DNA from: Cafeteria roenbergensis
Lineage: Eukaryota; Sar; Bigyra; Bicosoecida; Cafeteriaceae
Direction: 5' to 3'
DNA length: 30,332 bases
Assembly: GCA_008330645.1 (NCBI GenBank)
Contig: VLTN01000117.1
Span: 1-30,332, forward strand
Made by a program: the position numbers and the translations under genes. Shown here in pieces: positions 1 to 20,300 of this stretch. A model generated the notes under the pieces. That model saw only the letters and a list, made by a program, of their open reading frames with translations. It did no database searches and was not told the origin of the DNA. Every line of letters starts with the position of its first letter. Position 1 is the first letter of the stretch.

Positions 1-1
1 G

Positions 2-3000
2 GGAAACGGTGGGCTGATCGGAGGTGCCGGCGCACGTGAAGATTCACTGCCGGTGGATGGCGGAGCAGCCATGGAGGAGGAGAGCCAACCACCGGAGACT
101 CAGGACGCGTCGGGTGACGACGAAGACGGGTCGGGGGAGGATGATGATGTCGTTGGTGGAGACGGCGACATGACGTCGATGGACGAGGACGCAGGGAGCG
201 AGGGGGAGAGCGAGGCGTCGGGAGGTGAGGACGCGGCGGATGGGAACACTGGCGAACGGCTGGTGGATGGATGCCAAGCTACTGGGAGCCAGACCAGAGG
301 CTCCATGGACTATGGCACAACGGACGAGGCCAGTGACGAGGGGTCGGAGGACGACGGCGAGGCGAGTGAGGAGGAGGACTGGCAGATGACGGGCGACAGC
401 GCAGCCAGCCAGGACCAAGTCGAGGAGACAATGGACGACGGAGGATGGAGTCCGAGGAGCGAGACGCCAGAGGATGATGGCGCCTCGGACGAGGAGGAGG
501 ACGGGTCGCTGGCGGGCGACAGCGCAGCCAGGGCGGAGCGAGAGGGGTCGACGGTGGACAATGGTGAATCGGGGGAGGTGGAGGATGACCCGGCGGCGGA
601 TGATGAGGAGGCGAGTAGGGAGGAGGACGAGTCGGCGGAGGAGACTGGCGCAACTGGCGGAGCGCGGGGTCCATCAGCTGCAAACGCGGCGGGGGACCCG
701 AGTGTAGGACAGGTTCACAGCACCATGCCGCAGCTCGAGGTGGAGGTGCCGGCGGCGGCAGGAGTCACAGGGCAGTTGGCCGGAGCGAACCGGACAGCGG
801 AGCCACCGACGGGCGAGGAGGGGGACATGGATGCAAGCCACGGATTGGAGGGGGATGACGCGGAGGACGTGACGGGAGCGATGGCGGAAGCAGGAGGCAA
901 CGAGACGCCACTCTCTGACGGAGAGAGGGCGTGTGGGGACGGGCGGTGCAAGCGGTGCTCCACCAGCTCTCCGGACAGCCTCGCCAAGGGAGCCTTTCTG
1001 AGACACGGATGTCCCTCCAAGAAGTGGGTGCAGTGGTACATCAAGGCGCTGCTCCGGCAGTGCACCTTCGGCGAGGCCTTTGCCGCGGACAAACTGCGGC
1101 AGCGCAAGGCGGTGAGCGAGCACGTGCCGGTGGCGCTCGAGCCCACCTTACAGCATGGCACCATGGCAGCGGCGGCGTCCCTGGCGGGTGCTGGGCGCAG
1201 AGGCAACGCGGAGGGCCACCCGACCGTCGAGCAAGCGGCGGGAATAAGGGTGCAGCTCACCACGGTAGCGGCCCTGAAGGCGTATCTGCGGCGTCAAAAC
1301 GGCACTTCCGCCAAGGACCTGGCGAAGAGCATGGCATCGGCGGGCACCGTCGCGCAGGACAGGGAGACGCTGGAAGCGTTGATGAGCCTGCACCCGAGCG
1401 AGGAGGAGGTGGTCGACGGCACAGTGGAGGGAGAAGCGCCGGACCTCACCGACTCCGAGCTTCGGGAAATGGTGTCGGCGGCGATTCAGTCGATGCCGCA
1501 CAAGAAGGCCGTGGGCCCGGACGGCATGGTCGCGAAGCAGCTGGAGAACATCGCCGAGAAGGACCTGGATGCGCTCGTGTCATTTGTCCGAAGGGCGTTG
1601 AGGAACGACCTCTCTGCCGAGGAGCGCAGGGTCCTCGGGTCGTCAACCCTGATGGCGATTCCCAAGGGCAACGGCAAGATCAGGCCGGTGGCCATGGTCT
1701 CGGGCCTGGGCAAGCTGGTGGGCAAGGTGGTGAACACCATCCTGGGAAAGCACGGACTGCTGGACCAGCTGCGCTTCCAGTTCCTGGGCTGCCGAGACGG
1801 GTCGTGCAGGCTGGTCCATGCTGTCCGCACCGCGTTCGAGGAGGGAGGAGCCAAACGGTGGTTGTTGCGCTGGACATGGCCAACGCCTACAACTCCGTCT
1901 CCAGACGCGCGATGATCGAGGAGGTGCGGCGGCTGGACGAGAAGCTCGTGCCGGCGGTGCTGGCGCTGTACGGCTCGTCCAGCCCGCTCTCTCTTTGCCA
2001 CGGACGAGGGCGAGGTCTTTGAGCTGAAGTCCAACAGGGGCGTGCGTCAAGGCGACCCGGCAGCGGGCGCACTGTTTGCGATCGCAGTGCACCCCCTGGT
2101 GGACGAGGTGAGGCGCGCCTTCCCAGATGTGCTCATCTTGCAGATGGCCGACGACACGACGCTCGTGGGCCCGAGGAGGAGCGCCTTCAAGGCAGCCCAG
2201 ATGCTGGCCGAGCGGCTCAGCACGGTGGGGCTGCGGATGAACGCCAGACAAGACCCAGGTGCTGTGCAAACGTGGACAGCGGGAGAACGAAGGCCAGAAT
2301 CCAGCGGGAGATGAAGCGGAGTAGGGACGATCCAGGGTCCCCACCCTCGGTGCTGGAGGGGTGCCACCTCACCGAACGGAGCGTGGCGGTGCTGCAGTGT
2401 CCTGTGGGGGAGGAACTCCCGCCGGAGGTGGCACTTGAGCACTCGATGAAGCGACTGGAGAAGGAGTTCGGGCCGGCCGCGGAGCGCCTGCTCGCGGGCA
2501 TCGAGGTCTGCGGGCTCAAGCGGGCGCACCACCTGCTGCTGTCAGTGGTGGGCCAGAAGTTCAGCTACCTGCACAGAGCAGCGGGTGCGGCGGCGGGCCA
2601 GGAGCTGGCGGTGTTCCATGCGGCGCTGCTGGCCAACCTGGCGGCAGTGGCGCACAAGACGGAGCTGGATGCGATCGGCCACGCGCTCTCGGACGAGATG
2701 TGCACGGTGACCGAGGACGGCTTCCGTGAGGCCATGTCCAAGGCCATCGAGGCGCTTGTTCGGGGGCTGCCGGACGAGCACGCAAGGCGGGAGGCGTGGT
2801 GGGCGCTCCTGGGCCGGGAAGCCGACGGTGTGACTCGGCTCGCATCGGCAGCGTCCAACCCGGCCTTGAAGAAGGGAGGCTACGCTCAGATGAGGCTGGC
2901 AAAGATGCTGAGCAAGGGCTGCAAAGCCGGGGGCATGGGCCTGCCTGGCGTGGCGCAGTTCCGCTTCGAGGCGACAGCGGGCTTCATCGAGGCCGTTCGG

Positions 3001-5187
3001 GACATGCGGAAAGGGCGGTTCGAGATGGCACCACCGCCGGAGGAGGCCCTTGACGGACCCGGCACTGGTGGAGGCGGAGGAGAGCCAGCGTCGGGGAGTG
3101 GTGCCGGAGCGGGACCAGCCAACGCCGGCGAGGCGGAAGCGGAGGATGAGTCAGGTGCGGCGGCTGCTACAGCGGGCGGCACGCCGTGGGTGGACCACCC
3201 GGCGGTCGGAGAGAGCGAGTCCAAGGAGGACTGCGAGGAGGGGCCGGCGCACGGGCAGCAGCTTGCAGGTACGCTGGACGGCTGGCTCGTCAGCGGTACG
3301 GGGGGAGCGGCTGAACCGGGGCATCAGCCAACACCGACAAGCGGAGGCCAGACGGTCGGCGGAGGTGCGGCTGCCGCCAGCGCGGCGGGAGCGGCGACCG
3401 AGATGACGACGAGCGGCGGCGGCGCAGCGGCAGCTAGTGCGGCTGGCGCTCCAACCGGCCAAGAGACATCTGATGCCGCACAGCCGAGAGCGGATGCGGC
3501 ACAGGTCTACTCGGTCAGGCGAACGCCGGCGATCGGGTTGGCCAGGGACGGACCCGACGCGGACGCGGATGGCAACGACCCCAACTGGAAGGGCATCTCG
3601 CTCAAGAAACTCGTGATGAGCTCGCTGAAGCGCTCAGACCGCAGCGATGCGACCAAGGAGGTGGGCGACATCCTGCTGCGATGCGAGGAGGTCGCCAAGG
3701 GAGCCTACCGGGACTACGAGCGGGACAGCAAGGAGTACAAGGACGCCTGCACCGAGGCACGGTACTTCAGGCCGGACAAGGACTGCGTCGTGGGCAAGGA
3801 GGCCGACCTTCATGCCGCCAGGGTGAAGAAGCGCTACCAGCTGGCGCACGTGTGGAGGTCGGACATCGCGGGGGCTGTCGAGGGCCTGGAAGAGCTGCGC
3901 GCCGAGATCGAGGAGCTGGCGCTGGAGGCGATGATGGAGCTCAGATCTGACGACGAGTCGTCGGATGACATGGAGGCAACTGCAAACCTGGTGGAGGAGT
4001 TCATCAGGGCATGCAAGGGAGCCCGCTGCCTGGCCGCAGCGACAGGGTTCGAGGGCTTCTTGCCCGACACCCTGGGTAAGCTGCCGGGCGAGCTGAAGGC
4101 CAAGCTCCGCAAGTGCCTGTACGGCGACGGGGTGACAGCGCGGGCGAACGAGCAGACCGAGGCGCCCTGGCAGCGCAAGATGGTGCTGCACCACGATGAC
4201 ATGCTGCGCATCAAGCACGAGTGCGTCTTCCTGCGCCGGCTGGCCAAGGCGCGCAGGGCCTGCACAGCACGCTGCAGGGCCGAGGCGCTGGCCAAGGGCA
4301 CGACGGAGAAGCGTGTCGCCAACATCGACGACCCGGCCATGTTCCGCGTCATGAGCGACCTGGTCGCGTTCCGGGAGGCATGCGTGCCGGGAACGCACTA
4401 CTGGCTCCGCAACACGATGATGGGGCCCCGCGGGCTCACAGACGAGGAGTTCGCGGTGGTCACCCGCTACCGCATCGGAGCCTCCGAGGCCGACCACGTG
4501 GTGCCAGACGGCGTGTCGATCAACTGCGCGTGCGTGCAGCGGGACACCACCGCGAGAGGCACCGTCCACATCGGCGGGGTCTCGGGCGTGGCACATCACC
4601 TGGCGCGCTGCCGCTGCGGCAAGGGCTCCACCATCCGGGCGCACAACGACGTCCGCGACGTCCTGCACGCGGCGGTGCGCTCGGCGGGACTACAGTCGGT
4701 GGTGGAGCCCTCCAGCTGGCAGGACGGGCAGACGCGCTTCGGGTCCCAGCCGGGGTCCAGCGAGGCCGCGCGCAAGCGACCGGACCTGCGGGTGCACGTC
4801 GACTTCGAGACCACCTGTCTCGTCGACGTGCAGATCACCTCGGCGGTGAGCAAGTCCTACGTGACGCAGGGCCTGCAGAACATGGACGCCTTTCTCGAGC
4901 GCCGTGAGAATGACAAGATGAGGGAGTACAAGAAGAGCTCAGCTACAAAGGACAACATGAGCTCCATTGTGCCCTTCGTCATCACGACCACGGGACGCAT
5001 GGGACCGGCGGCCTTCGCCTTCCTCAAGAAGGTGGCGGACACGGCCTTCGGTGATCGGCCGAGGGAGCGTGCGCGCTGGGCCTTTCGCTGGCTGTCGAGG
5101 CTGAACGAGGTCATCGCCAAGGGACTGGCGACCCAGCTGATCGGGCAGACGCAGTACCTGCGACAGCAGGTGGAGCGTATGCGGTGA
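2..5187 (+). pseudogene. Frameshifted RT-endonuclease polyprotein of copy A
   Basis: The frame is open from base 2 without a stop; the first in-frame ATG is at 71. It encodes about 300 acidic residues, a Cys-rich patch (CGDGRCKRC, then HGC, near 935-1020) and the start of the RT (KKAVGPDGM near 1500, IPKGNGKIRPVAM near 1660). Relative to copy C, one A is lost near 1853-1856, so the frame ends at a stop at 1915. One base is gained near 1986-1994, one A is gained near 2246, and two bases are lost near 2285-2295. The RT core (LDMANAY, RQGDP, MADD) is therefore split over three frames, and the rest reads openly from about 2272 to 5187. The C-terminal part keeps the CAC...HH...CRC cluster, RPD and VDVQ of the RLE nuclease. 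The net shift is -1. Either the copy has decayed or there are sequencing indels. If repaired it would encode at least 1,700 residues. Confidence 0.85.
71..915 (+). other. Acidic, low-complexity N-terminal domain of the element ORF
   Basis: The translated region is dominated by Glu, Asp, Gly, Ser and Ala, with almost no aliphatic core, so it is probably disordered. It contains an imperfect internal duplication: the GDSAAS-type segment at 391 recurs at 514, a spacing of 123 nt (41 codons), with similar EASEEED and DGG/DNG neighbours. It occurs only in copy A, because all other copies are truncated downstream of it. I recognise no ORF1-type RNA-binding fold. A role in packaging or nuclear targeting would be a guess. 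Confidence 0.6.
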
Positions 5188-5365
5188 GCAGGGGCGGCTG
5201 ATTGGCGACTCGAGGCAGTGTGATGGCAGGGAGCTGGGATTTGAGACTTGGGATTGTGGGTTTGGCGCGGTTTGTGATTCATCGGTGATGGAGTTGCAGG
5301 ATTGGTGATTGGTGAGTCTATGAATCGAGTGTGTGGCATGGTTTTGCGAGCTTTTGACCCCCCCC
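5188..5365 (+). other. Element 3' UTR with C8 terminus (reference copy)
   Basis: The segment runs from after the TGA stop to the last C of the C8 run and is 178 nt long. It is GT-rich with many TTGGGATT, TTGGTGATT and GTGAATCGAGT words. Near-identical segments of exactly 178 nt follow the ORFs of B (7642-7819), C (11801-11978) and D (14731-14908), and a 174-nt version follows E (17070-17243). By analogy with R2-type elements, such a constant 3' UTR would be the part the RT binds for target-primed reverse transcription. That role is inferred. Confidence 0.75.
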
Positions 5366-7641
5366 AACGATGTTCACGAGCCGGGGGCATGGGCCTGCCT
5401 GGCGTGGCGCAGTTCCGCTTCGAAGCGGCAGCGGGCTTCATCGAGGCCGTTCGGGACATGCGGAAAGGGCGGTTCGAGATGGCACCACCGCCGGAGGAGG
5501 CCCTCGACGGACCCGGCACTGGTGGAGGCGGAGGAGAGCCAGCGTCGGGGAGTGGTGCCGGAGCAGGACCAGCCAACGCCGGCGGGGCGGAAGCGGAGGA
5601 TGAGTCGGGTGCGGCGGCTGCTGCAGCGGGCGGCACGCCGTGGGTGGACCACCCGGCGGTCGGAGAGAGCGAGTCCAAGGAGGACTGCGACGAGGGCCCG
5701 GCGCATGGGCAGCAACTTGCAGGTACGCTGGACGGGTGGCTCGTCAGCGGTACGGAGGGAGCGGCTGAACCGGAGCATCAGCCAACACCGACAAGCGGAG
5801 GCCAGACGGTCGGCGGAGGTGCGGCTGCCGCCAGCGCGGCGGGAGCGGCGACCGAGATGACGACGGGTGTCGGCGGCGCAGCGGCAGCTAGTGCGGCTGG
5901 CGCTCCAACCGGCCAAGAGACATCTGATGCCGCACAGCCGAGAGCGGATGCGGCACAGGTCTACTCGGTCAGGCGAACGCCGGCGATCGGGTTGGCCAGG
6001 GACGGACCCGACGCGGACGCGGACGGCAACGACCCCAACTGGAAGGGCATCTCGCTCAAGAAACTCGTGATGCGGGCGCTGAGGCGCTCAGACCGCAGCG
6101 ATGCGACCAAGGAGGTGGGCGACATCCTGCTGCGATGCGAGGAGGTCGCCAAGGGAGCTTACCGGGACTACGAGCGGGACAGCAAGGAGTACAAGGACGC
6201 CTGCACCGAGGCACGGTACTTCAGGCCGGACAAGGACTGCGTCGTGGGCAAGGAGGCCGACCTTCATGCCGCCAGGGTGACGAAGCGCTACCAGCTGGCG
6301 CACGTGTGGAGGTCGGACATCGCGGGGGCTGTCGAGGGCCTGGAAGAGCTGCGCGCCGAGATCGAGGAGCTGGCGCTGGAGGCGATGATGGAGCTCGGAT
6401 CTGACGACGAGTCGTCGGATGACATGGAGGCAGCGGCAAACCTGGTGGAGGAGTTCATCAGGGCCTGCAAGGGAGCCCGCTGCCTGGCCGCAGCGACAGG
6501 GTTCGAGGGCTTCTTGCCCGACACCCTGGGTAAGCTGCCGGGCGAGCTGAAGGCCAAGCTCCGCAAGTGCCTGTACGGCGACGGGGTGACAGCGCGGGCG
6601 AACGAGCAGACCGAGGCGCCCTGGCAGCGCAAGATGGTGCTGCACCACGACGACATGCTGCGCATCAAGCACGAGTGTGTCTTCCTGCGCCGGCTGGCCA
6701 AGGCGCGCAGGGCCTGCACAGCACGCTGCAGGGCCGAGGCGCTGGCCAAGGGCACGCCGGAGAAGCGTGTCGCCAACATCGACGACCCGGCCATGCTGCG
6801 CGTCATGAGCGACCTGGTCGCGTTCCGAGAGGCGTGCGTGCCGGGAACGCACTACTGGCTCCGCAACACGATGATGGGACCCCGCGGGCTCACAGACGAG
6901 GAGTTCGCGGTGGTCACCCGCTACCGCATCGGAGCCTCCGAGGCCGACCACGTGGTGCCGGACGGCGTGTCGATCAACTGCGCGTGCGTGCAGCGGGACA
7001 CCACCGCGAGAGGCACCGTCCACATCGGCGGGGTCTCCGGCGTGGCGCATCACCTAGCGCGCTGCCGCTGCGGCAAGGGCTCCACCATCCGGGCGCACAA
7101 CGACGTCCGCGACGTCCTGCACGCGGCGGTGCGCTCGGCGGGACTGCAGTCGGTGGTGGAGCCCTCCAGCTGGCAGGACGGGCAGACGCGCTTCGGGTCC
7201 CAGCCGGGGTCCAGCGAGGCCGCGCGCAAGCGACCGGACCTGCGGGTGCACGTCGACTTCGAGACCACCTGTCTCGTCGACGTGCAGATCACCTCGGCGG
7301 TGAGCAAGTCCTACGTGACGCAGGGCCTGCAGAACATGGACGCCTTTCTCGAGCGCCGTGAGAATGACAAGATGAGGGAGTACAAGAAGAGCTCAGCTAC
7401 AAAGGACAACTTGAGCTCCATTGTGCCCTTCGTCATCACGACCACGGGACGCATGGGACCGGCGGCCTTCGCCTTCCTCAAGAAGGTGGCGGACACGGCC
7501 TTCGGCGACCGGCCGAGGGAGCGTGCGCGCTGGGCCTTTCGCTGGCTGTCGAGGCTGAACGAGGTCATCGCCAAGGGACTGGCGACCCAGCTGATCGGGC
7601 AGACGCAGTACCTGCGACAGCAGGTGGAGCGTTTGCGGTGA
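5320..7641 (+). pseudogene. Truncated ORF: linker plus RLE endonuclease (copy B)
   Basis: The first in-frame ATG (5320) lies in the 3' UTR of copy A. Reading runs through the C8/AACGATG junction, adding about 20 foreign residues, and enters the B coding sequence at GGMGLPGVAQ. The frame is uninterrupted to the TGA at 7639-7641. It encodes the Gly/Ala/Pro linker, a charged, probably helical region (DYERDSKEYKDA, then LEELRAEIEELALEAM), and the RLE nuclease with CAC, HH, CRC, RPD and VDVQ all present. There is no RT, so it could not retrotranspose on its own. Whether the chimeric frame is expressed is unknown. Confidence 0.75.
5366..5379 (+). other. Junction A/B: AACGATGTTC target-like motif plus 4 extra bases
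   Basis: AACGATGTTC follows directly on the C8 of copy A. It is followed by ACGA before copy B begins with GCCGGGGG. The same ten bases occur at the other three A-D junctions, so this is either a duplicated target site or the true terminus of the element. Confidence 0.7.
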
Positions 7642-7819
7642 GCAGGGGCGGCTGAGTGACGACTCGAGGCAGTGTGATGGGAGTGATCTGGGACTTGAGA
7701 CTTGGGATTGCGGGTTTGGAGCGGTTTGTGATTCATCGGTGATGGAGTTGCTGGATTGGTTTTTGATGAGTCTGTGAATCGAGTGTGTGGTATGGTTACG
7801 CGAGTTTTCGACCCCCCCC
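5380..7819 (+). mobile_element. Non-LTR retrotransposon copy B, 5'-truncated
   Basis: The sequence resumes inside the element at the equivalent of position 2926 of copy A, in the linker just after the RT region. It then follows the family consensus to the 178-nt 3' UTR and C8 (7812-7819). It lacks the entire RT. 5' truncation is the usual product of incomplete reverse transcription by LINEs. Its 3' UTR shares variants with copy E (such as GGGAGTGATCTGGG) rather than with C and D, so it probably derives from a different source lineage. Confidence 0.9.
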
Positions 7820-7831
7820 AACGATGTTCAT
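7820..7831 (+). other. Junction B/C: AACGATGTTC plus 2 extra bases
   Basis: AACGATGTTC, then AT, lies between the C8 of copy B and the first base of copy C (CCGACCGTCG). This is the second instance of the same join. Confidence 0.7.
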
Positions 7832-10800
7832 CCGACCGTCGAGCAAGCGGCGGGAATAAGGGTGCAGTTCACCACGGTAGCGGCCCTGAAGGCGTATCTG
7901 CGGCGTCAAAACGGCACTTCCGCCAAGGACCTGGCGAAGAGCATGGCGTCGGCGGGCACCGTCGCACAGGACAGGGAGACGCTGGAAGCGTTGATGGACC
8001 TGCACCCGAGCGAGGAGGAGGTGGTCGACGGCACAGTGGAGGGAGAAGCGCCGGACCTCACCGACTCCGAGCTTCGGGAAATGGTGTCGGCGGCGATCCA
8101 GTCGATGCCGCACAAGAAGGCCGTGGGCCCGGACGGCATGGTCGCGAAGCAGCTGGAGAACATAGCCGAGAAGGACCTGGATGCGCTCGTGTCATTTGTC
8201 CGAAGGGCGTTGAGGAACGACCTCTCTGCCGAGGAGCGCAGGGTCCTCGGGTCGTCAACCCTGATGGCGATTCCCAAGGGCAACGGCAAGATCAGGCCGG
8301 TGGCCATGGTCTCGGGCCTGGGCAAACTGGTGGGCAAGGTGGTGAACACCATCCTGGGAAAGCACGGACTGCTGGACCAGCTGCGCTTCCAGTTCCTGGG
8401 CTGCCGAGACGGGTCGTGCAGGCTGGTCCATGCTGTCCGCACCGCGTTCGAGGAGGGAGGAGCCAAAACGGTGGTGGTAGCGTTGGACATGGCCAACGCC
8501 TACAACTCCGTCTCCAGGCGCGCGATGATCGAGGAGGTGCGGCGGTTGGACGAGAAGCTCGTGCCGGCGGTGCTGGCGCTGTACGGCTCGTCCAGCCCGC
8601 TCCTCTTTGCCACGGACGAGGGCGAGGTCTTTGAGCTGAAGTCCAACAGGGGCGTGCGTCAAGGCGACCCGGCAGCGGGCGCACTGTTTGCGATCGCAGT
8701 GCACCCCCTGGTGGACGAGGTGAGGCGCGCCTTCCCAGATGTGCTCATCTTGCAGATGGCCGACGACACGACGCTGGTGGGCCCGAGGAGGAGCGCCTTC
8801 AAGGCAGCCCAGATGCTGGCCGAGCGGCTCAGCACGGTGGGGCTGCGGATGAACGCCGACAAGACCCAGGTGCTGTGCAAACGTGGACAGCGCGAGGAAA
8901 CCAAAGCCAGAATTCAGCGGGTGATGAAGCGGAGTAGGGACGATCCAGGGTCCCCACCCTCGGTGCTGGCGGGGTGCCACCTCACCGAACGGAGCGTGGC
9001 GGTGCTGCAGTGTCCTGTGGGGGAGGACCTCTCACCGGAGGTGGCTCTAGAGCAGTCGATGAAGCGACTAGAGAAGGAGTTCGGGCCGGCGGCGGAACGC
9101 CTGCTCGCGGGCATCGAGGTCTGCGGGCTCAAGCGGGCGCACCACCTACTGCTGTCAGTGCTCGGACAGAAGTTCAGCTACCTGCACAGAGCAGCGGGTG
9201 CGGCGGCGGGCCAGGAGCTGGCGGTGTTCCACGCGGCGCTGCTGGCCAACCTGGCGGCAGTGGCGCACAAGACGGAGCTGGATGCGATCGGCCACGCGCT
9301 CTCGGACGAGATGTGCACGGTGACCGAGGACGGCTTCCGTGAGGCCATGTCCAAGGCCATCGAGGCGCTTGTTCGGGGGCTGCCGGACGAGCACGCAAGG
9401 CGGGAGGCGTGGTGGGCGCTCCTGGGCCGGGAAGCCGACGGTGTGACTCGGCTCGCATCGGCAGCGTCCAACCCGGCCTTGAAGAAGGGAGGCTACGCTC
9501 AGATGAGGCTGGCAAAGATGCTGAGCAAGGGCTGCAAAGCCGGGGGCATGGGCCTGCCTGGCGTGGCGCAGTTCCGCTTCGAAGCGGCAGCGGGCTTCAT
9601 CGAGGCCGTTCGCGACATGCGGAAAGGGCGGTTCGAGATGGCACCACCGCCGGAGGAGGCCCTCGACGGACCCGGCACTGGTGGAGGCGGAGGAGAGCCA
9701 GCGTCGGGGAGTGGTGCCGGAGCGGGACCAGCCAGCATCGGCGAGGCGGAAGCGGAGGATGAGTCGGGTGCGGCGGCTGCTGCAGCGGGCGGCACGCCGT
9801 GGGTGGACCACCCGGCGGTCGGAGAGAGCGAGTCCAAGGAGGACTGCGAGGAGGGGCCGGCGCACGGGCAGCAGCTTGCAGGTACGCTGGACGGCTGGCT
9901 CGTCAGCGGTACGGGGGGAGCGGCTGAACCGGAGCATCAGCCAACACCGACAAGCGGAGGCCAGACGGTCGGCGGAGGTGCGGCTGCCGCCAGCGCGGCG
10001 GGAGCGGCGACCGAGATGACGACGAGCGGCGGCGGCGCAGCGGCAGCTAGTGCGGCTGGCGCTCCAACCGGCCAAGAGACATCTGATGCCGCACAGCCGA
10101 GAGCGGATGCGGCACAGGTCTACTCGGTCAGGCGAACGCCGGCGATCGGGTTGGCCAGGGACGGACCCGACGCGGACGCGGACGGCAACGACCCCAACTG
10201 GAAGGGCATCTCGCTCAAGAAACTCGTGATGCGGGCGCTGAGGCGCTCAGACCGCAGCGATGCGACCAAGGAGGTGGGCGACATCCTGCTGCGATGCGAG
10301 GAGGTCGCCAAGGGAGCTTACCGGGACTACGAGCGGGACAGCAAGGAGTACAAGGACGCCTGCACCGAGGCACGGTACTTCAGGCCGGACAAGGACTGCG
10401 TCGTGGGCAAGGAGGCCGACCTTCATGCCGCCAGGGTGACGAAGCGCTACCAGCTGGCGCATGTGTGGAGGTCTGACATCGCGGGGGCTGTCGAGGGCCT
10501 GGAAGAGCTGCGCGCCGAGATCGAGGAGCTGGCGCTAGAGGCGATGATGGAGCTCAGATCTGACGACGAGTCGTCGGATGACATGGAGGCAACTGCAAAC
10601 CTGGTGGAGGAGTTCATCAGGGCCTGCAAGGGAGCCCGCTGCCTGGCCGCAGCGACAGGGTTCGAGGGCTTCTTGCCCGACACCCTGGGTAAGCTGCCGG
10701 GCGAGCTGAAGGCCAAGCTCCGCAAGTGCCTGTACGGCGACGGGGTGACAGCGCGGGCGAACGAGCAGACCGAGGCGCCCTGGCAGCGCAAGATGGTGCT

Positions 10801-11978
10801 GCACCACGACGACATGCTGCGCATCAAGCACGAGTGTGTCTTCCTGCGCCGTCTGGCCAAGGCGCGCAGGGCCTGCACAGCACGCTGCAGGGCCGAAGCG
10901 CTGGCCAAGGGCACGCCGGAGAAGCGTGTCGCCAACATCGACGACCCGGCCATGCTGCGCGTCATGAGCGACCTGGTCGCGTTCCGAGAGGCGTGCGTGC
11001 CGGGAACGCACTACTGGCTCCGCAACACGATGATGGGACCCCGCGGGCTCACAGACGAGGAGTTCGCGGTGGTCACCCGCTACCGCATCGGAGCCTCCGA
11101 GGCTGACCACGTGGTGCCAGACGGCGTGTCGATCAACTGCGCGTGCATGCAGCGAGATACCACCGCGAGAGGCACCGTCCACATCGGCGGGGTCTCGGGC
11201 GTGGCACATCACCTGGCGCGCTGCCGCTGCGGCAAGGGCTCCACCATCCGGGCGCACAACGACGTTCGCGACGTCCTGCACGCGGCGGTGCGCTCGGCGG
11301 GGCTACAGTCGGTGGTGGAGCCCTCCAGCTGGCAGGACGGGCAGACGCGCTTCGGGTCCCAGCCGGGGTCCAGCGAGGCCGCGCGCAAGCGACCGGACCT
11401 GCGGGTGCACGTCGACTTCGAGACCACCTGTCTCGTCGACGTGCAGATCACCTCGGCGGTGAGCAAGTCCTACGTGACGCAGGGCCTGCAGAACATGGAC
11501 GCCTTTCTCGAGCGCCGTGAGAATGACAAGATGAGGGAGTACAAGAAGAGCTCAGCTACAAAGGACAACTTGAGCTCCATTGTGCCCTTCGTCATCACGA
11601 CCACGGGACGCATGGGACCGGCGGCCTTCGCCTTCCTCAAGAAGGTGGCGGACACGGCCTTCGGTGATCGGCCGAGGGAGCGTGCGCGCTGGGCCTTCCG
11701 CTGGCTGTCGAGGCTGAACGAGGTCATCGCCAAGGGACTGGCGACCCAGCTGATCGGGCAGACGCAGTACCTGCGGCAGCAGGTGGAGCGTATGCGGTGA
11801 GCAGGGGCGGCTGTGTGGTGACTCGAGGCAGTGTGATGGCAGGGATCTGGGATTTGAGACTTGGGATTGTGGGTTTGGCGCGGTTTGTGATTCATCGGTG
11901 ATGGCGTTGCTGGATTGGTGATTGGTGAGTCTGTGAATCGAGTGTGTGGCATGGTTTTGCGAGCTTTTGACCCCCCCC
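7832..11978 (+). mobile_element. Non-LTR retrotransposon copy C, 5'-truncated but with intact RT and RLE
   Basis: The copy starts at the equivalent of position 1220 of copy A, after the acidic and Cys-rich regions but before the RT. It continues unbroken to the 178-nt 3' UTR and C8 (11971-11978). It is the only copy in the window with an intact RT-to-RLE frame, so it is the best reference for the family enzyme. Its 3' UTR is almost identical to that of copy D, suggesting that C and D are close in source or age. Confidence 0.92.
7943..11800 (+). CDS. Reverse transcriptase / restriction-like endonuclease of a non-LTR retrotransposon
   Basis: The enzyme would nick the target DNA and reverse-transcribe element RNA from the nick. 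The chosen start is the first in-frame ATG (1285 aa). The frame is open further upstream into the 3' UTR of copy B. Visible RT motifs are KKAVGPDGM (about 58-66), IPKGNGKIRPVAM (about 110-122), LDMANAYNSV with catalytic Asp182, RQGDP (about 239-243), MADD with catalytic Asp274-275, and MNADKTQ (about 303). A thumb-like and unassigned region follows, then a Gly/Ala/Pro low-complexity linker (about 568-730). The C-terminus holds Cys1066/Cys1068, His1089-1090, Cys1094/Cys1096, then RPD (Asp1152) and VDVQ (Asp1166). That arrangement matches the zinc cluster and PD-(D/E)XK core of RLE nucleases of the R2/NeSL kind. No apurinic-type endonuclease is seen. The native N-terminus is missing. Confidence 0.88.
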   Translation: MASAGTVAQDRETLEALMDLHPSEEEVVDGTVEGEAPDLTDSELREMVSAAIQSMPHKKAVGPDGMVAKQLENIAEKDLDALVSFVRRALRNDLSAEERRVLGSSTLMAIPKGNGKIRPVAMVSGLGKLVGKVVNTILGKHGLLDQLRFQFLGCRDGSCRLVHAVRTAFEEGGAKTVVVALDMANAYNSVSRRAMIEEVRRLDEKLVPAVLALYGSSSPLLFATDEGEVFELKSNRGVRQGDPAAGALFAIAVHPLVDEVRRAFPDVLILQMADDTTLVGPRRSAFKAAQMLAERLSTVGLRMNADKTQVLCKRGQREETKARIQRVMKRSRDDPGSPPSVLAGCHLTERSVAVLQCPVGEDLSPEVALEQSMKRLEKEFGPAAERLLAGIEVCGLKRAHHLLLSVLGQKFSYLHRAAGAAAGQELAVFHAALLANLAAVAHKTELDAIGHALSDEMCTVTEDGFREAMSKAIEALVRGLPDEHARREAWWALLGREADGVTRLASAASNPALKKGGYAQMRLAKMLSKGCKAGGMGLPGVAQFRFEAAAGFIEAVRDMRKGRFEMAPPPEEALDGPGTGGGGGEPASGSGAGAGPASIGEAEAEDESGAAAAAAGGTPWVDHPAVGESESKEDCEEGPAHGQQLAGTLDGWLVSGTGGAAEPEHQPTPTSGGQTVGGGAAAASAAGAATEMTTSGGGAAAASAAGAPTGQETSDAAQPRADAAQVYSVRRTPAIGLARDGPDADADGNDPNWKGISLKKLVMRALRRSDRSDATKEVGDILLRCEEVAKGAYRDYERDSKEYKDACTEARYFRPDKDCVVGKEADLHAARVTKRYQLAHVWRSDIAGAVEGLEELRAEIEELALEAMMELRSDDESSDDMEATANLVEEFIRACKGARCLAAATGFEGFLPDTLGKLPGELKAKLRKCLYGDGVTARANEQTEAPWQRKMVLHHDDMLRIKHECVFLRRLAKARRACTARCRAEALAKGTPEKRVANIDDPAMLRVMSDLVAFREACVPGTHYWLRNTMMGPRGLTDEEFAVVTRYRIGASEADHVVPDGVSINCACMQRDTTARGTVHIGGVSGVAHHLARCRCGKGSTIRAHNDVRDVLHAAVRSAGLQSVVEPSSWQDGQTRFGSQPGSSEAARKRPDLRVHVDFETTCLVDVQITSAVSKSYVTQGLQNMDAFLERRENDKMREYKKSSATKDNLSSIVPFVITTTGRMGPAAFAFLKKVADTAFGDRPRERARWAFRWLSRLNEVIAKGLATQLIGQTQYLRQQVERMR

Positions 11979-11992
11979 AACGATGTTCATCC
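11979..11992 (+). other. Junction C/D: AACGATGTTC plus 4 extra bases
   Basis: AACGATGTTC, then ATCC, separates the C8 of copy C from the first recognisable D bases (AGCGACTAG). The ATG inside the motif is in frame with the D coding sequence and gives the start MFIQRLEKEF. Confidence 0.7.
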
Positions 11993-14730
11993 AGCGACTA
12001 GAGAAGGAGTTCGGGCCGGCGGCGGAACGCCTGCTCGCGGGCATCGAGGTCTGCGGGCTCAAGCGGGCGCACCACCTACTGCTGTCAGTGCTCGGACAGA
12101 AGTTCAGCTACCTGCACAGAGCAGCGGGTGCGGCGGCGGGCCAGGAGCTGGCGGTGTTCCATGCGGCGCTGCTGGCCAACCTGGCGGCAGTGGCGCACAA
12201 GACGGAGCTGGATGCGATCGGCCACGCGCTCTCGGACGAGATGTGCACGGTGACCGAGGACGGCTTCCGTGAGGCCATGTCCAAGGCCATCGAGGCGCTT
12301 GTTCGGGGGCTGCCGGACGAGCACGCAAGGCGGGAGGCGTGGTGGGCGCTCCTGGGCCGGGAAGCCGACGGTGTGACTCGGCTCGCATCGGCAGCGTCCA
12401 ACCCGGCCTTGAAGAAGGGAGGCTACGCTCAGATGAGGCTGGCAAAGATGCTGAGCAAGGGCTGCAAAGCCGGGGGCATGGGCCTGCCTGGCGTGGCGCA
12501 GTTCCGCTTCGAAGCGGCAGCGGGCTTCATCGAGGCCGTTCGGGACATGCGGAAAGGGCGGTTCGAGATGGCACCACCGCCGGAGGAGGCCCTCGACGGA
12601 CCCGGCACTGGTGGAGGCGGAGGAGAGCCAGCGTCGGGGAGTGGTGCCGGAGCGGGACCAGCCAACGCCGGCGAGGCGGAAGCGGAGGATGAGTCGGGTG
12701 CGGCGGCTGCTGCAGCGGGCGGCACGCCGTGGGTGGACCACCCGGCGGTCGGAGAGAGCGAGTCCAAGGAGGACTGCGAGGAGGGACCGGCGCACGGGCA
12801 GCAGCTTGCAGGTACGCTGGACGGCTGGCTCGTCAGCGGTACGGGGGGAGCGGCTGAACCGGAGCATCAGCCAACACCGACAAGCGGAGGCCAGACGGTC
12901 GGCGGAGGTGCGGCTGCCGCCAGCGCGGCGGGAGCGGCGACCGAGATGACGACGGGCGGCGGCGGCGCAGCGGCAGCTAGTGCGGCTGGCGCTCCAACCG
13001 GCCACGAGACATCTGATGCCGCACAGCCGAGAGCGGATGCGGCACAGGTCTACTCGGTCAGGCGAACGCCGGCGATCGGGTTGGCCAGGGACGGACCCGA
13101 CGCGGACGCGGACGGCAACGACCCCAACTGGAAGGGCATCTCGCTCAAGAAACTCGTGATGCGGGCGCTGAGGCGCTCAGACCGCAGCGGTGCGACCAAG
13201 GAGGTGGGCGACATCCTGCTGCGATGCGAGGAGGTCGCCAAGGGAGCCTACCGGGACTACGAGCGGGACAGCAAGGAGTACAAGGACGCCTGCACCGAGG
13301 CACGGTACTTCAGGCCGGACAAGGACTGCGTCGTGGGCAAGGAGGCCGACCTTCATGCCGCCAGGGTGAAGAAGCGCTACCAGCTGGCGCATGTGTGGAG
13401 GTCTGACATCGCGGGGGCTGTCGAGGGCCTGGAAGAGCTGCGCGCCGAGATCGAGGAGCTGGCGCTGGAGGCGATGATGGAGCTCAGATCTGACGACGAG
13501 TCGTCGGATGACATGGAGGCAGCGGCAAACCTGGTGGAGGAGTTCATCAGGGCCTGCAAGGGAGCCCGCTGCCTGGCCGCAGCGACAGGGTTCGAGGGCT
13601 TCTTGCCCGACACCCTGGGTAAGCTGCCGGGCGAGCTGAAGGCCAAGCTCCGCAAGTGCCTGTACGGCGACGGGGTGACAGCGCGGGCGAACGAGCAGAC
13701 CGAGGCGCCCTGGCAGCGCAAGATGGTGCTGCACCACGACGACATGCTGCGCATCAAGCACGAGTGTGTCTTCCTGCGCCGTCTGGCCAAGGCGCGCAGG
13801 GCCTGCACAGCACGCTGCAGGGCCGAGGCGCTGGCCAAGGGCACGCCGGAGAAGCGTGTCGCCAACATCGACGACCCGGCCATGCTACGCGTCATGAGCG
13901 ACCTGGTCGCGTTCCGAGAGGCGTGCGTGCCGGGAACGCACTACTGGCTCCGCAACACGATGATGGGACCCCGCGGGCTCACAGACGAGGAGTTCGCGGT
14001 GGTCACCCGCTACCGCATCGGAGCCTCCGAGGCTGACCACGTGGTGCCAGACGGCGTGTCGATCAACTGCGCGTGCGTGCAGCGAGATACCACCGCGAGA
14101 GGCACCGTCCACATCGGCGGGGTCTCGGGCGTGGCACATCACCTGGCGCGCTGCCGCTGCGGCAAGGGCTCCACCATCCGGGCGCACAACGACGTTCGCG
14201 ACGTCCTGCACGCGGCGGTGCGCTCGGCGGGGCTACAGTCGGTGGTGGAGCCCTCCAGCTGGCAGGACGGGCAGACGCGCTTCGGGTCCCAGCCGGGGTC
14301 CAGCGAGGCCGCGCGCAAGCGACCGGACCTGCGGGTGCACGTCGACTTCGAGACCACCTGTCTCGTCGACGTGCAGATCACCTCGGCGGTGAGCAAGTCC
14401 TACGTGACGCAGGGCCTGCAGAACATGGACGCCTTTCTCGAGCGCCGTGAGAATGACAAGATGAGGGAGTACAAGAAGAGCTCAGCTACAAAGGACAACT
14501 TGAGCTCCATTGTGCCCTTCGTCATCACGACCACGGGACGCATGGGACCGGCGGCCTTCGCCTTCCTCAAGAAGGTGGCGGACACGGCCTTCGGTGATCG
14601 GCCGAGGGAGCGTGCGCGCTGGGCCTTCCGCTGGCTGTCGAGGCTGAACGAGGTCATCGCCAAGGGACTGGCGACCCAGCTGATCGGGCAGACGCAGTAC
14701 CTGCGGCAGCAGGTGGAGCGTATGCGGTGA
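11983..14730 (+). pseudogene. Truncated ORF: post-RT region, linker and RLE endonuclease (copy D)
   Basis: The frame starts at the ATG embedded in the AACGATGTTC junction and is open for 915 codons to the TGA at 14728-14730. It holds the post-RT region (RLEKEFGPAAERLLAGIEVCG onward), the low-complexity linker and a complete RLE nuclease with CAC, HH, CRC, RPD and VDVQ. The RT motifs are absent, so the copy is not autonomous. It differs from C at a few residues, for example NAGEAEAED instead of SIGEAEAED and CACVQ instead of CACMQ. The frame match at the junction may be chance. Confidence 0.75.
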
Positions 14731-14908
14731 GCAGGGGCGGCTGTGTGGTGACTCGAGGCAGTGTGATGGCAGGGATCTGGGATTTGAGACTTGGGATTGT
14801 GGGTTTGGCGCGGTTTGTGACTCATTGGTGATGGAGTTGCTGGATTGGTGATTGGTGAGTCTGTGAATCGAGTGTGTGGTATGGTGACGCGAGTTTTCGA
14901 CCCCCCCC
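11993..14908 (+). mobile_element. Non-LTR retrotransposon copy D, 5'-truncated
   Basis: The copy starts at the equivalent of position 2450 of copy A, just after the RT catalytic core, and runs to the 178-nt 3' UTR and C8 (14901-14908). It is very similar to copy C, sharing silent variants such as GACGTTCGCGAC, CGTCTGGCC and GGCTGACCAC. It is the last member of the contiguous array; unrelated sequence follows. Confidence 0.9.
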
Positions 14909-14918
14909 AACGATGTTC
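14909..14918 (+). other. 3' end of the array: AACGATGTTC at the LINE/host boundary
   Basis: The same ten bases follow the C8 of copy D, but the next bases (TCCCTCGGG) belong to unrelated sequence. If the motif is a target-site duplication, this is the original downstream half of the target. The three internal junctions have A after the motif, while this one has T. Confidence 0.65.
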
Positions 14919-16183
14919 TCCCTCGGGCGACCCTGGCGGTCCCCGCCGAGCCGAATCTTTAGCCACTAGGTCAGCATCGGCGATTCTCGCCTCCACTCTG
15001 CCAACCAGAAATAAGACAGCAGAGGCGGCTATGGACTGGCCTACTCTGGGCCCGCCGGCCACATAGACAACGACTGCCAAGGGAGCCTCGGGAGCAGCGA
15101 GGGGCGGCGGGCGCTCAGGGGGCGAGGAAACAGCGGCAGGACGACGGACGTCGACGACGTCACCGGGAGTGACAGGCGCAGCGTTCACGAGCCCGGCACT
15201 CACATCCGCCATGAGGGCCGGGGCAGGCACCCGACAAGCCGCTGACGAAGCCCACGTCGGCCACCTGCCTGAGGACCGGTGCAGTGCGCGGAGCAGGGCA
15301 ACCACAGTCCTCCGCAAAACGTCGGACGGCTGAGGCCGTCGGATCAATTGCAAAGGTGCTGGGCGTCCTGAATGAGGTCAGCCCAAGTGTATCCAACCAA
15401 GGTCGCGAGTTTCTCAGGTCAGGGCGGCAATGTATCACTCCGGAGGGGCCCAGTGGCACCGGCTAGGACAAGGATGAGGTCGCTCCCCAGTCGTTGTGCC
15501 GAGCACCCTCACCGGAATCCCGAGAGAGCATATGAATGGTGTCATCAACAGCAAGCCTAACGAGGCTGAATTTTGAGCTGAAGGAAAAGCAACACGTCGA
15601 GTCAAAAGGAACCGCATCCTACAACAAGGACAGGCAGCGACGTGACGGATCAGGCAGAGGAGGGCGGCGTTCTCGCTGCAGCGCTGGGGAAAACTCTGCT
15701 CGACGAACGCCCGCGCAACCAAGACAATGAATGCAGGAACTCTCCCGTCGACAGCGGGCAACACAGCGGCACCGCACTCACCTGCCCTGACTAGTGGCCC
15801 CAAGGGAATCTGCGACTCCATATTCCCGTCACGTTTGTATGACGCACGCTTTGCTTTGCCCAGCCCACCCGCCCCGCGGGCAGACAGAGCTCTGCCAAGT
15901 GGAGGGCTCGACAAAGCAGAGCCCACCTGCCGTACTCGGTGACACACCCCAGTCACGGCTCCGGAAGGAGAGCAGGCGACGACTTGCACACCAACGATTT
16001 TTAACGATGCGAGATCAGTTTAAAAAGTCTAGGGACTGTGAGATGTTGACACAGCCTGGCAAAGATTGTCTGGAAAGCGCTGATACCACACGAGGACTCT
16101 TCCAACAAACACAACACAAACAAAAAAAGGGCTAAACTATGACATCTAAGAACAATCTCAGACCATAGTTAACGATGACACAG
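14919..16183 (+). other. Non-LINE spacer without recognisable gene
   Basis: About 1.27 kb separates copies D and E. Several short overlapping open frames exist on both strands, for example a - strand frame from 15819 starting MESQIPLGPL and a + strand frame at 15727-15942. None has a recognisable domain and no frame is dominant. The right part (about 15990-16183) is richer in A and T than its surroundings, including an A7 run near 16122. On the - strand this part reads as a T-rich segment followed by a primer-binding-site-like sequence. It may be the remnant of an LTR element or ordinary intergenic DNA. Confidence 0.5.
16076..16088 (-). other. Possible LTR-retrotransposon primer-binding site (initiator Met tRNA)
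   Basis: The - strand reads TGGTATCAGCGCT. The classic copia-type primer-binding site begins TGGTATCAG, complementary to the 3' end of the initiator methionine tRNA. The match covers nine bases, and the rest could fit a lineage-specific acceptor stem. It is preceded on the - strand by T-rich sequence, as an LTR end could be, but the expected CA dinucleotide is not seen (GTG instead) and no gag or pol is recognisable. The call is tentative. Confidence 0.3.
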
Positions 16184-17243
16184 GCCGGAGAAGCGTGTCG
16201 CCAACATCGATGACCCGGCCATGATACGCGTCATGAGCGACCTGGTCGCGTTCCGAGAGGCATGCGTGCCGGGGACACACTACTGGCTCCGCAACACGAT
16301 GATGGGACCCCGCGGGCTCACGGACGAGGTGTTCGCGGTGGTCGGCCGCTACCGCATCGGAGCCGCCGAGGCCGACCACGTGGTGCCGGAAGGCGTGTCG
16401 ATCAACTGTGCGTGCATGCAGCGAGACACCACCGCGAGAGGCACCGTCCACATCGGCGGGGTCTCGGGCGTGGCACACCACCTGGCGCGCTGCCGCTGCG
16501 GCAAGGGCTCCACCATCCGGGCGCACAACGACGTTCGCGACGTCCTGCACGCGGCGGTGCGCTCGGCGGGGCTACAGTCGGTCGTGGAGCCCTCCAGCTG
16601 GCAGGACGGGCAGGCGCGCTTCGGATCCCAGCCGGGGTCCAGCGAGGCCGCGCGCAAGCGACCGGACCTGCGGGTGCACGTCGACTTCGAGACCACCTGT
16701 CTCGTCGACGTGCAGATCACCTCGGCGGTGAGCAAGTCCTACGTGACGCAGGGCCTGCAGAGCATGGACGCCTTTCTCGAGCGCCGTGAGAATGACAAGA
16801 TGGGGGAGTACAAGAAGAGCTCAGCTACAAAGGACAACATGAGCTCCATTGTGCCCTTCGTCATCACGACCACGGGACGCATGGGACCGGCGGCCTTCGC
16901 CTTCCTCAAGAAGGTGGCGGACACGGCCTTCGGCGACCGGCCGAGGGAGCGTGCGCGCTGGGCCTTTCGCTGGCTGTCGAGGCTGAACGAGGTCATCGCC
17001 AAGGGACTGGCGACCCAGCTGATCGGGCAGACGCAGTACCTGCGACAGCAGGTGGAGCGCATGCGGTGAGCAGGGGCGGCTGAGTGGCGACTCGAGGCAG
17101 TGTGATGGGAGTGATCTGGGCTTGGGACTTGGGATTGCGAGTTTCGCGCGGTTTGTGATTCATCGGTGATGGAGTTGTTGGATTGGTTCTTGATGAGTCT
17201 GTGAATCGAGTAAGTGGCATGGTGACGCGAGCTTTCGCCCCCC
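16184..17243 (+). mobile_element. Non-LTR retrotransposon copy E, short and separately inserted
   Basis: The copy starts at the equivalent of about position 4303 of copy A, with GCCGGAGAAG, and contains only the RLE-coding end, a 174-nt 3' UTR and a run of six C (17238-17243). It is not joined to the A-D array. It differs most from the other copies (for example EVFAVVGRYRIGAAEADHVV and NDKMGEYKK) and is probably an older or separate lineage. Its 3' UTR is closest to that of copy B. The 5' flank has TTAACGATGACA and the 3' flank has CAATGATGCTGA, both resembling the A-D junction motif. Confidence 0.88.
16221..17069 (+). pseudogene. Remnant ORF: RLE endonuclease domain only (copy E)
   Basis: The first in-frame ATG is at 16221, and element homology in the same frame begins about 12 codons earlier (EKRVANIDDPAM). 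The 282-codon frame keeps the CAC cluster, HH, CRC, RPD and VDVQITS of the nuclease, so no catalytic residue has obviously been lost. There is no RT or linker. It is a fragment of a mobile element and not a host gene. Confidence 0.75.
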
Positions 17244-17308: not shown

Positions 17309-20300
17309 TCAGTCATTGTTGGATCGTCTCACAGTGTTTTGGGACATTCCCACGCGCCTTGAGGACGCTTGCACGCGAATAGTTCCGGCTGCGCGCCCTC
17401 CCCAGCTCGGGTTTCCGAGACGCGGGCGAGGTGGCAGATGCTGTCGAAGCGGGGCCTTTCTGAACGAGGCGTCGAGATATGTCTTCTTCAGCGACTCGGT
17501 TTGAATCGCTCCGAGCGCTGCCTCGTGCTCGGCATCGGCACAACGCCTTGCTGAGAGGTCTTGCCTGAGGCGCGAAATGCCCTTGTCGCTGATCGTCTGC
17601 ACCCGAAGCCGGACATATTCCCTCCAGACAACCGATTCTGGCGCTGTCAAGTGACTTGCTGGCTCGGCGCTGGCTCCTCGGTTGCTGGCCCACACTGGAT
17701 TTTCTCTCACAGGGCCGTCGGGCTCGCTGCCCTTTGCGCTCACAGCTCGCGGCCAGTCCGTCCTCCGCACCGCCCCGATGCCAAGCGTGCGCCTGGCGTT
17801 CGCCGGAATTTTACTTGCTGCTGCTTCGGCCAGCGGAATTGCAACCAAATCAAGGCTGTCTGCGAGCCAAGATGCCCAGCTTGACCGCTTGACGTTCTTG
17901 GACGATGCAAACACCGCTGCTGGTTGTACCACCAGAGCAAACGCTGCCTGGGTGAGCCAAGCGACCACGATCCACAAAGTGCCAACGTCGCCTTGCAGTG
18001 AGCTTGCAGCCAGGAAGCATGCTGCAGCTGCCGCAAGCAGCAAGCTTGGCATGATGAAAACAGCTGCCAGCAGGTCACCTCTCCGTCGAAGCCAGGTGTT
18101 CCGCTGCCTTCGAGTGCGACTGGTCTTCAGTGCACGCAGGTGAGGATGCAGAGCGAGCACTGTGGACACTGACTTCAACCGAATCAGAGCAGCGGTGGCC
18201 TGCTTGTCATGGTGCGGAATAGTTGGCAAATGTGCCCTTGGGCGCCGTCCGACGAGACTGGCAGGCCCCGTGACAGTGAACCCAGAAGCCAAGCCAAACC
18301 CGGCCAGCTGGGCCATCACGTGTTCAGACAATCTCCACTTTTCGTCGCGTTCCATGGCCGGCTCACTGACCGCCCAGCGAAGGCCACAACAGTGACGTTG
18401 GCATAGTCTTGTCGGGTTAGGCATAGGTGGCTTGCCAGCACCGCCATCGCTTTCGCCCTGTCGTGAGTTTGCCATCAAGTCGAGCGCGCATTGCTCCGGG
18501 TTGACGAACATGTCCTCCTCCATTTGGCTTTGGCCCAACCAGCAACAGTGGTCCGGTCTCCCACGTATGGCTCTTGCACGTCGTGCAGCGCGTGCAAGGA
18601 GAGACTTGCCAGCTTCCCGGCTGGCGCACGCAGCGCAGCTGCGGCGCGGGCAACCAACACCACCGGCCTCCCAGACGCCCAGAGACGACACATTGAGGTG
18701 CCCAGTCGCTCTGTCTCGCTTCGTGAGGATTGAGACCCTTGCTTCAGCCTCGTCGTGATCGAACCTAGAAAACTTGCTTGCAGAAAAGCAGCAGACGGAG
18801 GGCAATCGAAGTGCGCAGCGCAAGTTGGCTCGCTCATTTTCACAAGAGAGTCGGAAGCCACGCGTCAGTGAGTTTCCCAGCCACGTCACCGAGTCCGGAC
18901 GTGACATCGATGCAGCTATCTCTGACGCCTTGGCACGAGCGCGCCTGGTCGGAGACTCAGCATCGAGTGAAAGCGCCTCTTCGTGCGGCCCAGCAACCCG
19001 GAGCCAGTTGGCAGACGGCATGGCTGACCCACCTCTCACAACTTCGCCAATGCTGCTTGCGCTCGAGGTGGCATCACTAATGACGTCATCCTCTGAATCA
19101 GAGTCCCAGTCTATGACTATTGATGATGCCGAGCCGGGCTGGCCTGCCTGGCTCGCTCCAGCTTGCTTTTGATCCGCGAAGGAATCATCCAGCTCGACTG
19201 CTGCTTCGGAAGACGTGCTGCTGCCGACAGAGCTCCCAGAATTCCAATCAATCGCGTCGCATTCGGACGAATGCTCTTGAACTCTGTCCATGGCGGAAGT
19301 CCCTGCCGCACTTGCAGCCAATGCGGCGGATACAGGGGGCTTGGGAACTGCTCGGGACCGGGCCTGCAACACGTGAGATGCAATGCCTCTTGCTGGAGCC
19401 CTTTGTCCGACAACCAAGGCGGTTGGAAGCCCTCTCGATCCCATCCTGGTCCCCCGTTCAGCTGCCGTTGGTGCTGACGAGACAGGACGCTCTGGCTGGC
19501 CGTCACTTTCCAGCTTCACGTTCGAAACGAAGTCAGCAAGCTCGCGATTCTCTGCGATGCCGGAACCAACGTACTTGGGCAGAACCTTCACAGCAAACTT
19601 TCTGAACTCCAGCTCTTCCCACACCGTGAAGAATCGCCATTGGAAGGCGGCTCGACCAAGCTGCCTTGCAACGCATCTCCAAAAGACAAGCATGATCTGC
19701 TGCCCAATCGCTGTAGCGAAAGCCAAGGCAGCCATCTCCGGCAGCGAAGGCCCTGACGATGTGTGCGGCAGGTACAAGGCCAAAGCTGTGAGCGAGAGTA
19801 CGGTTGCCGAAGCCAAGCTGAGCACTCGAAGATGCCTTGGATGCCGCGCCCGGAAAACAGTGAAAAGCTCAAGCCATGCGTGCCTGTAGCACAGCTGCTC
19901 TGCACAACATGACGAGGAGCACTTGGACCTCACGCGGTCGATGCCAGTGAGCCCACTCATCTGTTTGGTGGCTGCTCGCAGCCTGGTCTGCCCATAGCGC
20001 ATTCGAGTTTGCGTCGATTTGTCGGGCCGAAGGTCAACGCCTGGGAGTCGCTTTTGGCCATGGTTGATCCAAGCCACCGGGTTGTTGTGCGCAACAAAAG
20101 CAGAGCCCGATGGTGCAGTCGCCTTCCATGTCGATCCGCCGGTCTCTCTAGACGCTGTCCTGTCAGCGTGTTTCGTGAAGGCTGGCGGGGCTACACATTT
20201 GGGAAGACCGATGTGCCGAGATTCCCGGATTGCCTGGAGGGCTCCCACTCTTGAGCTGGCCTCCTGAAGCGCCCTCGCGAGCTGCATTGAACTGTCGGCT

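Follow-up and report, generated by a model that had tools for sequence, protein, structure and literature searches.

What has assembled a stack of near-identical retrotransposon copies at one end of a contig of Cafeteria roenbergensis, and does that stack mark a chromosome end? The window analysed here is the whole of contig VLTN01000117.1 (assembly GCA_008330645.1; 30,332 nucleotides; C117 below, contigs being written C1, C2 and so on, with L and R for their left and right ends). The window is very likely a chromosome-end contig, whose distal 15 kb are an array of a telomere-attaching non-long-terminal-repeat (non-LTR) retrotransposon that encodes a reverse transcriptase (RT) and a C-terminus resembling a restriction-like endonuclease (RLE).

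A first-pass annotation of the window had described four same-strand, head-to-tail copies with identical 3' ends, a different 5' truncation in each downstream copy and no host DNA between them, and all of this was borne out. Copies A, B, C and D (Table 1) lie on one strand with one shared end point and different start points; the 18-mer CCCCCCCCAACGATGTTC closes each of them exactly (0 occurrences in 100 shuffles), and nothing but the short fillers listed in Table 1 (2-4 nt) stands between them. Copies were aligned to a ruler, the longest element copy available, the 5' part of which comes from C28R. Copy A is cut at its 5' end because the window is the whole contig. Pairwise identity among copies A to D is 97.4-99.1%. 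The four-copy array does run to position 14918 as originally described, but the element does not end there: after 1.26 kb of non-element DNA follows an older, decayed copy (E), with 95.2-95.9% identity to copies A to D.

We mapped the join over the whole assembly, as the first-pass annotation had suggested. The assembly searched comprises 36,303,456 bases in 167 contigs (the published assembly of strain BVI is given as 170 contigs and 36,327,047 bp by Hackl et al., PMC6972860, and the same strains are named C. burkhardae in an eLife paper, PMC8547959). The exact 18-base join occurs 230 times (104 on the + strand, 126 on the - strand), and its backward control 0 times. The figures on position and polarity refer to the matches listed, 100 of the 230 joins, all of them on C1-C45. 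The outermost 20 kb at each contig end, together 7.0% of C1-C45, contain 92 of these joins, and in 91 of the 92 the 5' end of the element points toward the contig end (the sole opposite case is C10:11392); at least 37 of the 90 ends of C1-C45 have a join within this distance. The same polarity was found at the very tips, taken as the outermost 600 bases (333 for one) of both ends of C1-C45 and C117 (92 tips, one piece stopping 193 bases before the contig end): 30 tips start within the element, 29 of them with its 5' end outward, and the lone opposite tip, C10L, is a divergent 89% fragment. With contig ends standing in for chromosome ends, as we infer they do, the element looks confined mainly to chromosome ends, head to tail and 5' end outward. 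Among the settings initially considered for the array, the chromosome end is the one favoured by both sets of polarity counts, and a centromeric cluster of the Zepp type was provisionally set aside, given the near-uniform terminal polarity, the small number of interior joins among those listed and the presence of arrays at many contig ends.

Join anatomy was read from 15 arrays with 49 joins. In 35 of the 49, a match to another copy is reached within 40 nt of the join; the filler measures 0-23 nt, and the matches begin at 30 different points (C28R, as the ruler source, matches by construction, and the match at C14L 7981 is weak, at 68 nt). The tail of the element is not poly(A): it reads C8-AACGATGTTCA, with a C run of exactly eight in 51 of 58 distinct joins, and CCC precedes all 58 distinct occurrences of AACGATGTTC in the 290,878 bases examined (chosen largely around joins and tips), none standing alone. 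Of 56 distinct tails, 55 continue with A directly after the join and 44 have T next; identity then fades within about 5 nt and is gone by about the sixth base, and the flanks beyond the innermost joins and beyond seven of the eight interior joins listed vary from place to place. Since the flanks vary and the identity fades gradually, the simplest reading of AACGATGTTCA is that the element itself ends there, and the fading fits an RNA end at which initiation is imprecise. At C49:275207 two copies of the tail stand ahead of AAACCCTAA, as if the RT had begun again on the RNA end. The invariant string at every end of copies A to D, first described as a joining site, is real but appears to belong to the element, and the differing flanks speak against a site-specific hotspot in the host; the proposed repeated target-primed addition is supported. 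Tandem arrays of very short 3' element pieces are present at C4 left (L011, 390-bp period) and C22 right (L019, 131-bp pieces with identical filler, period about 154 bp); both are satellites born from the retrotransposon tail.

Table 1 Features of the window, with the telomerase candidate on C17 (positions are those of the window unless a contig is named).
Feature	Position	Strand	Details
Copy A	1-5375	+	most distal; 5' end cut by contig start; alignment to element ruler
Copy A 3' end, C8-AACGATGTTC	5358-5375	+	exact string match
Copy B	5379-7829	+	5'-truncated at ruler 3075; preceding filler ACG
Copy B 3' end	7812-7829	+	exact string match
Copy C	7832-11988	+	5'-truncated at ruler 1368; preceding filler AT
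Reverse transcriptase domain, copy C	8270-8890	+	PF00078 (RVT_1), aa 162-368, E 2.3e-21
C-terminal CxC...HHxxxCxC and KRPD-x13-D block, copy C	11138-11482	+	motif only
Copy C 3' end	11971-11988	+	exact string match
Copy D	11993-14918	+	5'-truncated at ruler 2600; preceding filler ATCC
Copy D 3' end, innermost exact join	14901-14918	+	exact string match
104-nt repeat starting TCCCTCGGGCGACCC	14919-15022	+	common to several other loci
Copy E, older, 5'-truncated, decayed 3' end CCCCCAATGATGC	16184-17243	+	ruler alignment
Candidate telomerase reverse transcriptase gene (L112, L113)	C17, about 528-532 kb		open frame, very Ala-rich

Copy C lies inside an open frame (7787-11800, 1337 aa) whose start falls mechanically in the tail of copy B; the frame of copy A is broken (open at 2-1915 and 2272-5187). 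The RT domain of copy C carries the motifs VVALDMANAYNSV, RQGDPAAGALF and ADDT, and the solved sequences nearest to it are R2 and LINE-1; judged by this domain, the element is a non-LTR retrotransposon. The C-terminus looks like a restriction-like endonuclease by its Cys/His motif and KRPD-x13-D block, a pattern that would place it in this class, and it may act as one. The fullest copy (C28R, L022) runs for 2003 codons without a stop in the stretch examined and opens with a tandem repeat of 72 bp in 19.3 units; the C13 left tip falls within the same 72-bp repeat. A scan of the viral contigs found no relatives there.

Some of the fillers resemble the telomere C-strand: ATCCTAAATCTAACCCTAACCCAA at C14L 3958, ACCCTAA at C30R 2852 and ATTCATTTAATCCCTAAG at C28L 1785. 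CCTAA lies at most 24 nt from a join at 24 places genome-wide, compared with 230 exact C8 joins; roughly one join in ten is followed by these letters. It is commoner just after the joins than further on, being present in 6 of the 57 first 29-nt windows after the join, while the four windows that follow contain it 0, 3, 1 and 0 times out of 57 (4/228), an excess of about fivefold but small in numbers. For CCCTAA the count is striking (4 observed; mean 0.5 and maximum 3 in composition shuffles). There are no assembled telomere tracts of the kinds sought: three consecutive TTAGGG or TTAGG units, even with gaps of up to two bases allowed, occur nowhere in the assembly, and CCTAACCCTAACCC is absent from it. 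The C7L tip, which starts ACCCTAACCTAACCCAACC, has the only telomeric-looking outermost bases among the 92 tips.

A candidate gene for telomerase reverse transcriptase (TERT) was found on C17. The PF12009 profile gave no match in the assembly at E <= 0.001 (a search run with no control genome alongside); at E <= 10 two pieces emerged (E 0.032 and 0.0052), colinear and within a single 1916-aa open frame. In the part of this frame examined, the RNA-binding domain scores 33.9 bits against a Pfam cut-off of 25, and the sole solved match is 6d6v, a telomerase reverse transcriptase (E 0.0031) that we take to be the Tetrahymena enzyme. By eye, and with motif names that are our own assignment, the frame contains motifs T, 1-2, A and B', and the next stretch, free of stops, contains motifs C, D and E (LRLLDDFLIV, GCVINPGKT and WFAWCGLLL). 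The downstream piece taken alone (P0002) matched no Pfam family, and its sole phmmer match, a ketoacyl synthase (E 1.2e-5), was judged spurious and driven by composition. On the basis of the PF12009 score, the 6d6v match and the motifs, telomerase is very probably encoded in Cafeteria, and a loss of telomerase was rejected on account of this open frame. The parallel drawn at the outset with HeT-A of Drosophila consequently holds for polarity and array layout, and fails for the absence of telomerase.

Several other explanations of the arrays were considered. Assembly breaks at repeats pile any repeat family at contig ends, so an ordinary dispersed repeat could look terminal; the assembly was made from PacBio RS II reads with Canu, its curation broke contigs at coverage drops (PMC6972860), and the tips do begin mid-element. 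Such breaks would give both polarities, whereas one prevails, by 29 tips to 1 (p 6e-8, two-sided binomial test) and, within 20 kb of contig ends, by 91 joins to 1; the arrays are therefore terminal as far as the assembly goes, and we consider a dispersed repeat highly improbable. Equally improbable is R2-like insertion into a fixed target AACGATGTTC, with that sequence as the target-site duplication. This would place the 10-mer at every exact join, as observed, each insertion re-creating the target, but the flanks past the 10-mer differ at innermost and interior joins (which led us to reject a fixed host target flank), the C run goes with all 58 10-mers of a set drawn largely from around joins, and the fading of identity over about 5 bases leaves no abrupt target border.

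Recombination has a better case, although as the main source of the arrays it is still unlikely. Unequal exchange, break-induced copying or rolling-circle copying of a few original insertions would account for the identical truncation points and fillers within C4L, C3R (two copies from ruler 3008) and C22R, where one repeated truncation point indicates recombination and not new insertions; the same pattern is described in MoTeR arrays (PMC7367193). Against it stand the 30 distinct start points in 35 copy-to-copy joins, with differing fillers. A replacement of the HeT-A type, in which telomerase has been lost and end maintenance is left to the retrotransposon alone, fits the polarity, the truncation, the outward stacking and the lack of any three-unit TTAGGG/TTAGG run or CCTAACCCTAACCC in the assembly, yet it has to face a TERT candidate with an RNA-binding domain above the cut-off and motifs T to E recognisable by eye, as well as CCCTAA-type seeds at some joins; we regard it as quite improbable.

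Beyond the recurrent truncation points, a number of observations weigh against a telomere-attaching retrotransposon at the chromosome ends. Eight of the 100 joins listed are interior. No element match of at least 100 nt was found in the outermost 600 bases of 61 of the 92 tips, and one more tip is all N; some element-free tips end in other satellites, and C1L (1-625) and the tips of C7L, C11L, C12L and C44L have non-element DNA outside their outermost join, so that bare arrays do not account for all contig ends. The element is called RLE-like from a motif that neither structure nor sequence searches confirmed: the only PDB match of the copy C C-terminus was unrelated (E 1.8), and a single-sequence model of the C-terminal part had a mean pLDDT of 39, useless for fold comparison. 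Telomere-like filler is found at a minority of joins, most having none, and its signal is modest (six CCTAA windows observed, where 500 shuffles average 1.6 and reach 6 at most), while CTAA is not striking (9 observed; mean 5.3, maximum 12). The 24 CCTAA places come from a search of C4 joins, for which the 230 exact C8 joins are not the true denominator, and the backward control of that search, although 0, was without the join and says little. C7L, the sole telomeric-looking tip, is free of the element over its outermost 600 bases.

Comparison with known telomeric elements, chiefly telomere-associated RLE retrotransposons (MoTeR/FoTeR/Cnl1 type), helps to place the probable telomere-attaching retrotransposon of Cafeteria. 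In our best reading it would work like MoTeR/FoTeR and GilM/GilT, with MoTeR/FoTeR a closer parallel than HeT-A. GilM and GilT have a poly(A) 3' end, whereas the Cafeteria tail is C8-AACGATGTTCA, and the host is another. They are likewise telomeric elements of a protist, Giardia, with an RT of the CRE clade (PMC10088271). MoTeR1 and MoTeR2 of Magnaporthe (Pyricularia) oryzae are RLE-type telomeric elements which, as in Cafeteria, form head-to-tail arrays with truncated copies, are separated by variable telomere-like spacers (from half a repeat upward) and show repeated truncation points through break-induced copying; their internal relics keep the 3' end, and the Cafeteria interior joins resemble them (PMC7367193). 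The spacers differ, those of MoTeR being (TTAGGG)n that can exceed 20 units, with ordinary telomeres also seen (PMC7367193), and those of Cafeteria 0-23 nt, mostly non-telomeric and with no assembled tract; the host, a stramenopile and not a fungus, also differs. FoTeR of Fusarium oxysporum shares the chromosome-end location, the C-strand telomeric letters after the 3' end and upstream tandem repeats (compare the 72-bp repeat of the C28R copy), but its 3' ends typically carry 3.0-7.0 TAACCC copies (PMC12857005), against CCTAA at a minority of joins here. HeT-A, TART and TAHRE of Drosophila are stacked outward with their 3' ends toward the centromere, as in Cafeteria, and unlike the Cafeteria element have poly(A) tails (PMC10088271); the telomerase gene of Drosophila is lost (PMC4700185), whereas Cafeteria has a TERT candidate.

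A mechanism can be proposed for the growth of the arrays. The 3'-OH of a chromosome end (eroded, nicked, or with a few telomere-like letters) would prime reverse transcription, and copying would start at the 3' end of the element RNA (...C8-AACGAUGUUCA...), imprecise initiation leaving the filler of 0-23 nt. First-strand synthesis would stop short, or later erosion would follow, giving a 5'-truncated copy with its 5' end facing the chromosome tip; the next copy would join that outer end, and the array would grow outward. We propose that unequal exchange or break-induced copying also duplicates units, adding tandem units with one truncation point, and telomerase may add the short CCCTAA-type seeds. 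The element might in this way have a role in end maintenance. That the ends are chiefly made and maintained by the retrotransposon, with telomerase reduced to very short degenerate priming seeds, is a bolder idea that we put forward tentatively and consider rather doubtful.

The remainder of the window was also surveyed. Directly inside the innermost join stands a 104-nt repeat (Table 1) with a sharp 5' border, mostly preceded by ...TTGACCC.CCCTCCCG and found in both orientations near contig ends and beside two interior joins (L010, L017, L023, L027, L066, L069, L100); it might represent the 3' tail of another, related family of elements. The - strand of positions 17309-30332 contains a very long open reading frame, stop-free for more than 4,000 codons, in which REJ (E 1.1e-13) and GPS (E 5.3e-9) domains were recognised. 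Within it, from about 24.2 kb to the contig end, extends a 42-bp minisatellite encoding Ser/Thr/Pro-rich repeats. The same minisatellite is found at the C13 right tip (L081) in joining orientation, with best long matches of 91-94%, and the window may supply the right arm end that C13 lacks. No Rfam family reached the gathering score in positions 1-24000, and no tRNA was found in the whole window. Elsewhere in the assembly, C167 (43,160 bases) carries a bacterial-type small-subunit ribosomal RNA gene, the sole match of the universal small-subunit pattern in the assembly, and was read as mitochondrial; a frame in it read as atp6 requires TGA as Trp, the code described for the Cafeteria mitochondrion (PMC6972860). 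The conserved 18S pattern found no nuclear 18S match in the assembly.

No prior report of a telomeric element in Cafeteria was found among the matches listed, in a search that left Repbase and most subscription papers outside. The stem telomer* is counted 0 times in the main texts of PMC6972860 and PMC8547959, as far as these were covered, and twice in a longer text of PMC8547959. A small number of lineages are known to carry telomeric retrotransposons (PMC10088271), and Cafeteria would add a further case, in a free-living, culturable stramenopile with an intact-looking telomerase gene and almost no assembled telomere repeat. Here one could ask whether elements of this kind are parasites of telomerase, a backup for it or a substitute. 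The arrays suggest why many contig ends of the assembly stop inside repeats, and provide a landmark by which the true ends of chromosomes can be sought in this host of CroV and mavirus. If the ends are indeed chiefly made by the retrotransposon on telomerase-made seeds, Cafeteria, a stramenopile, would represent a living stage between telomeres built by telomerase and telomeres built by a retrotransposon.

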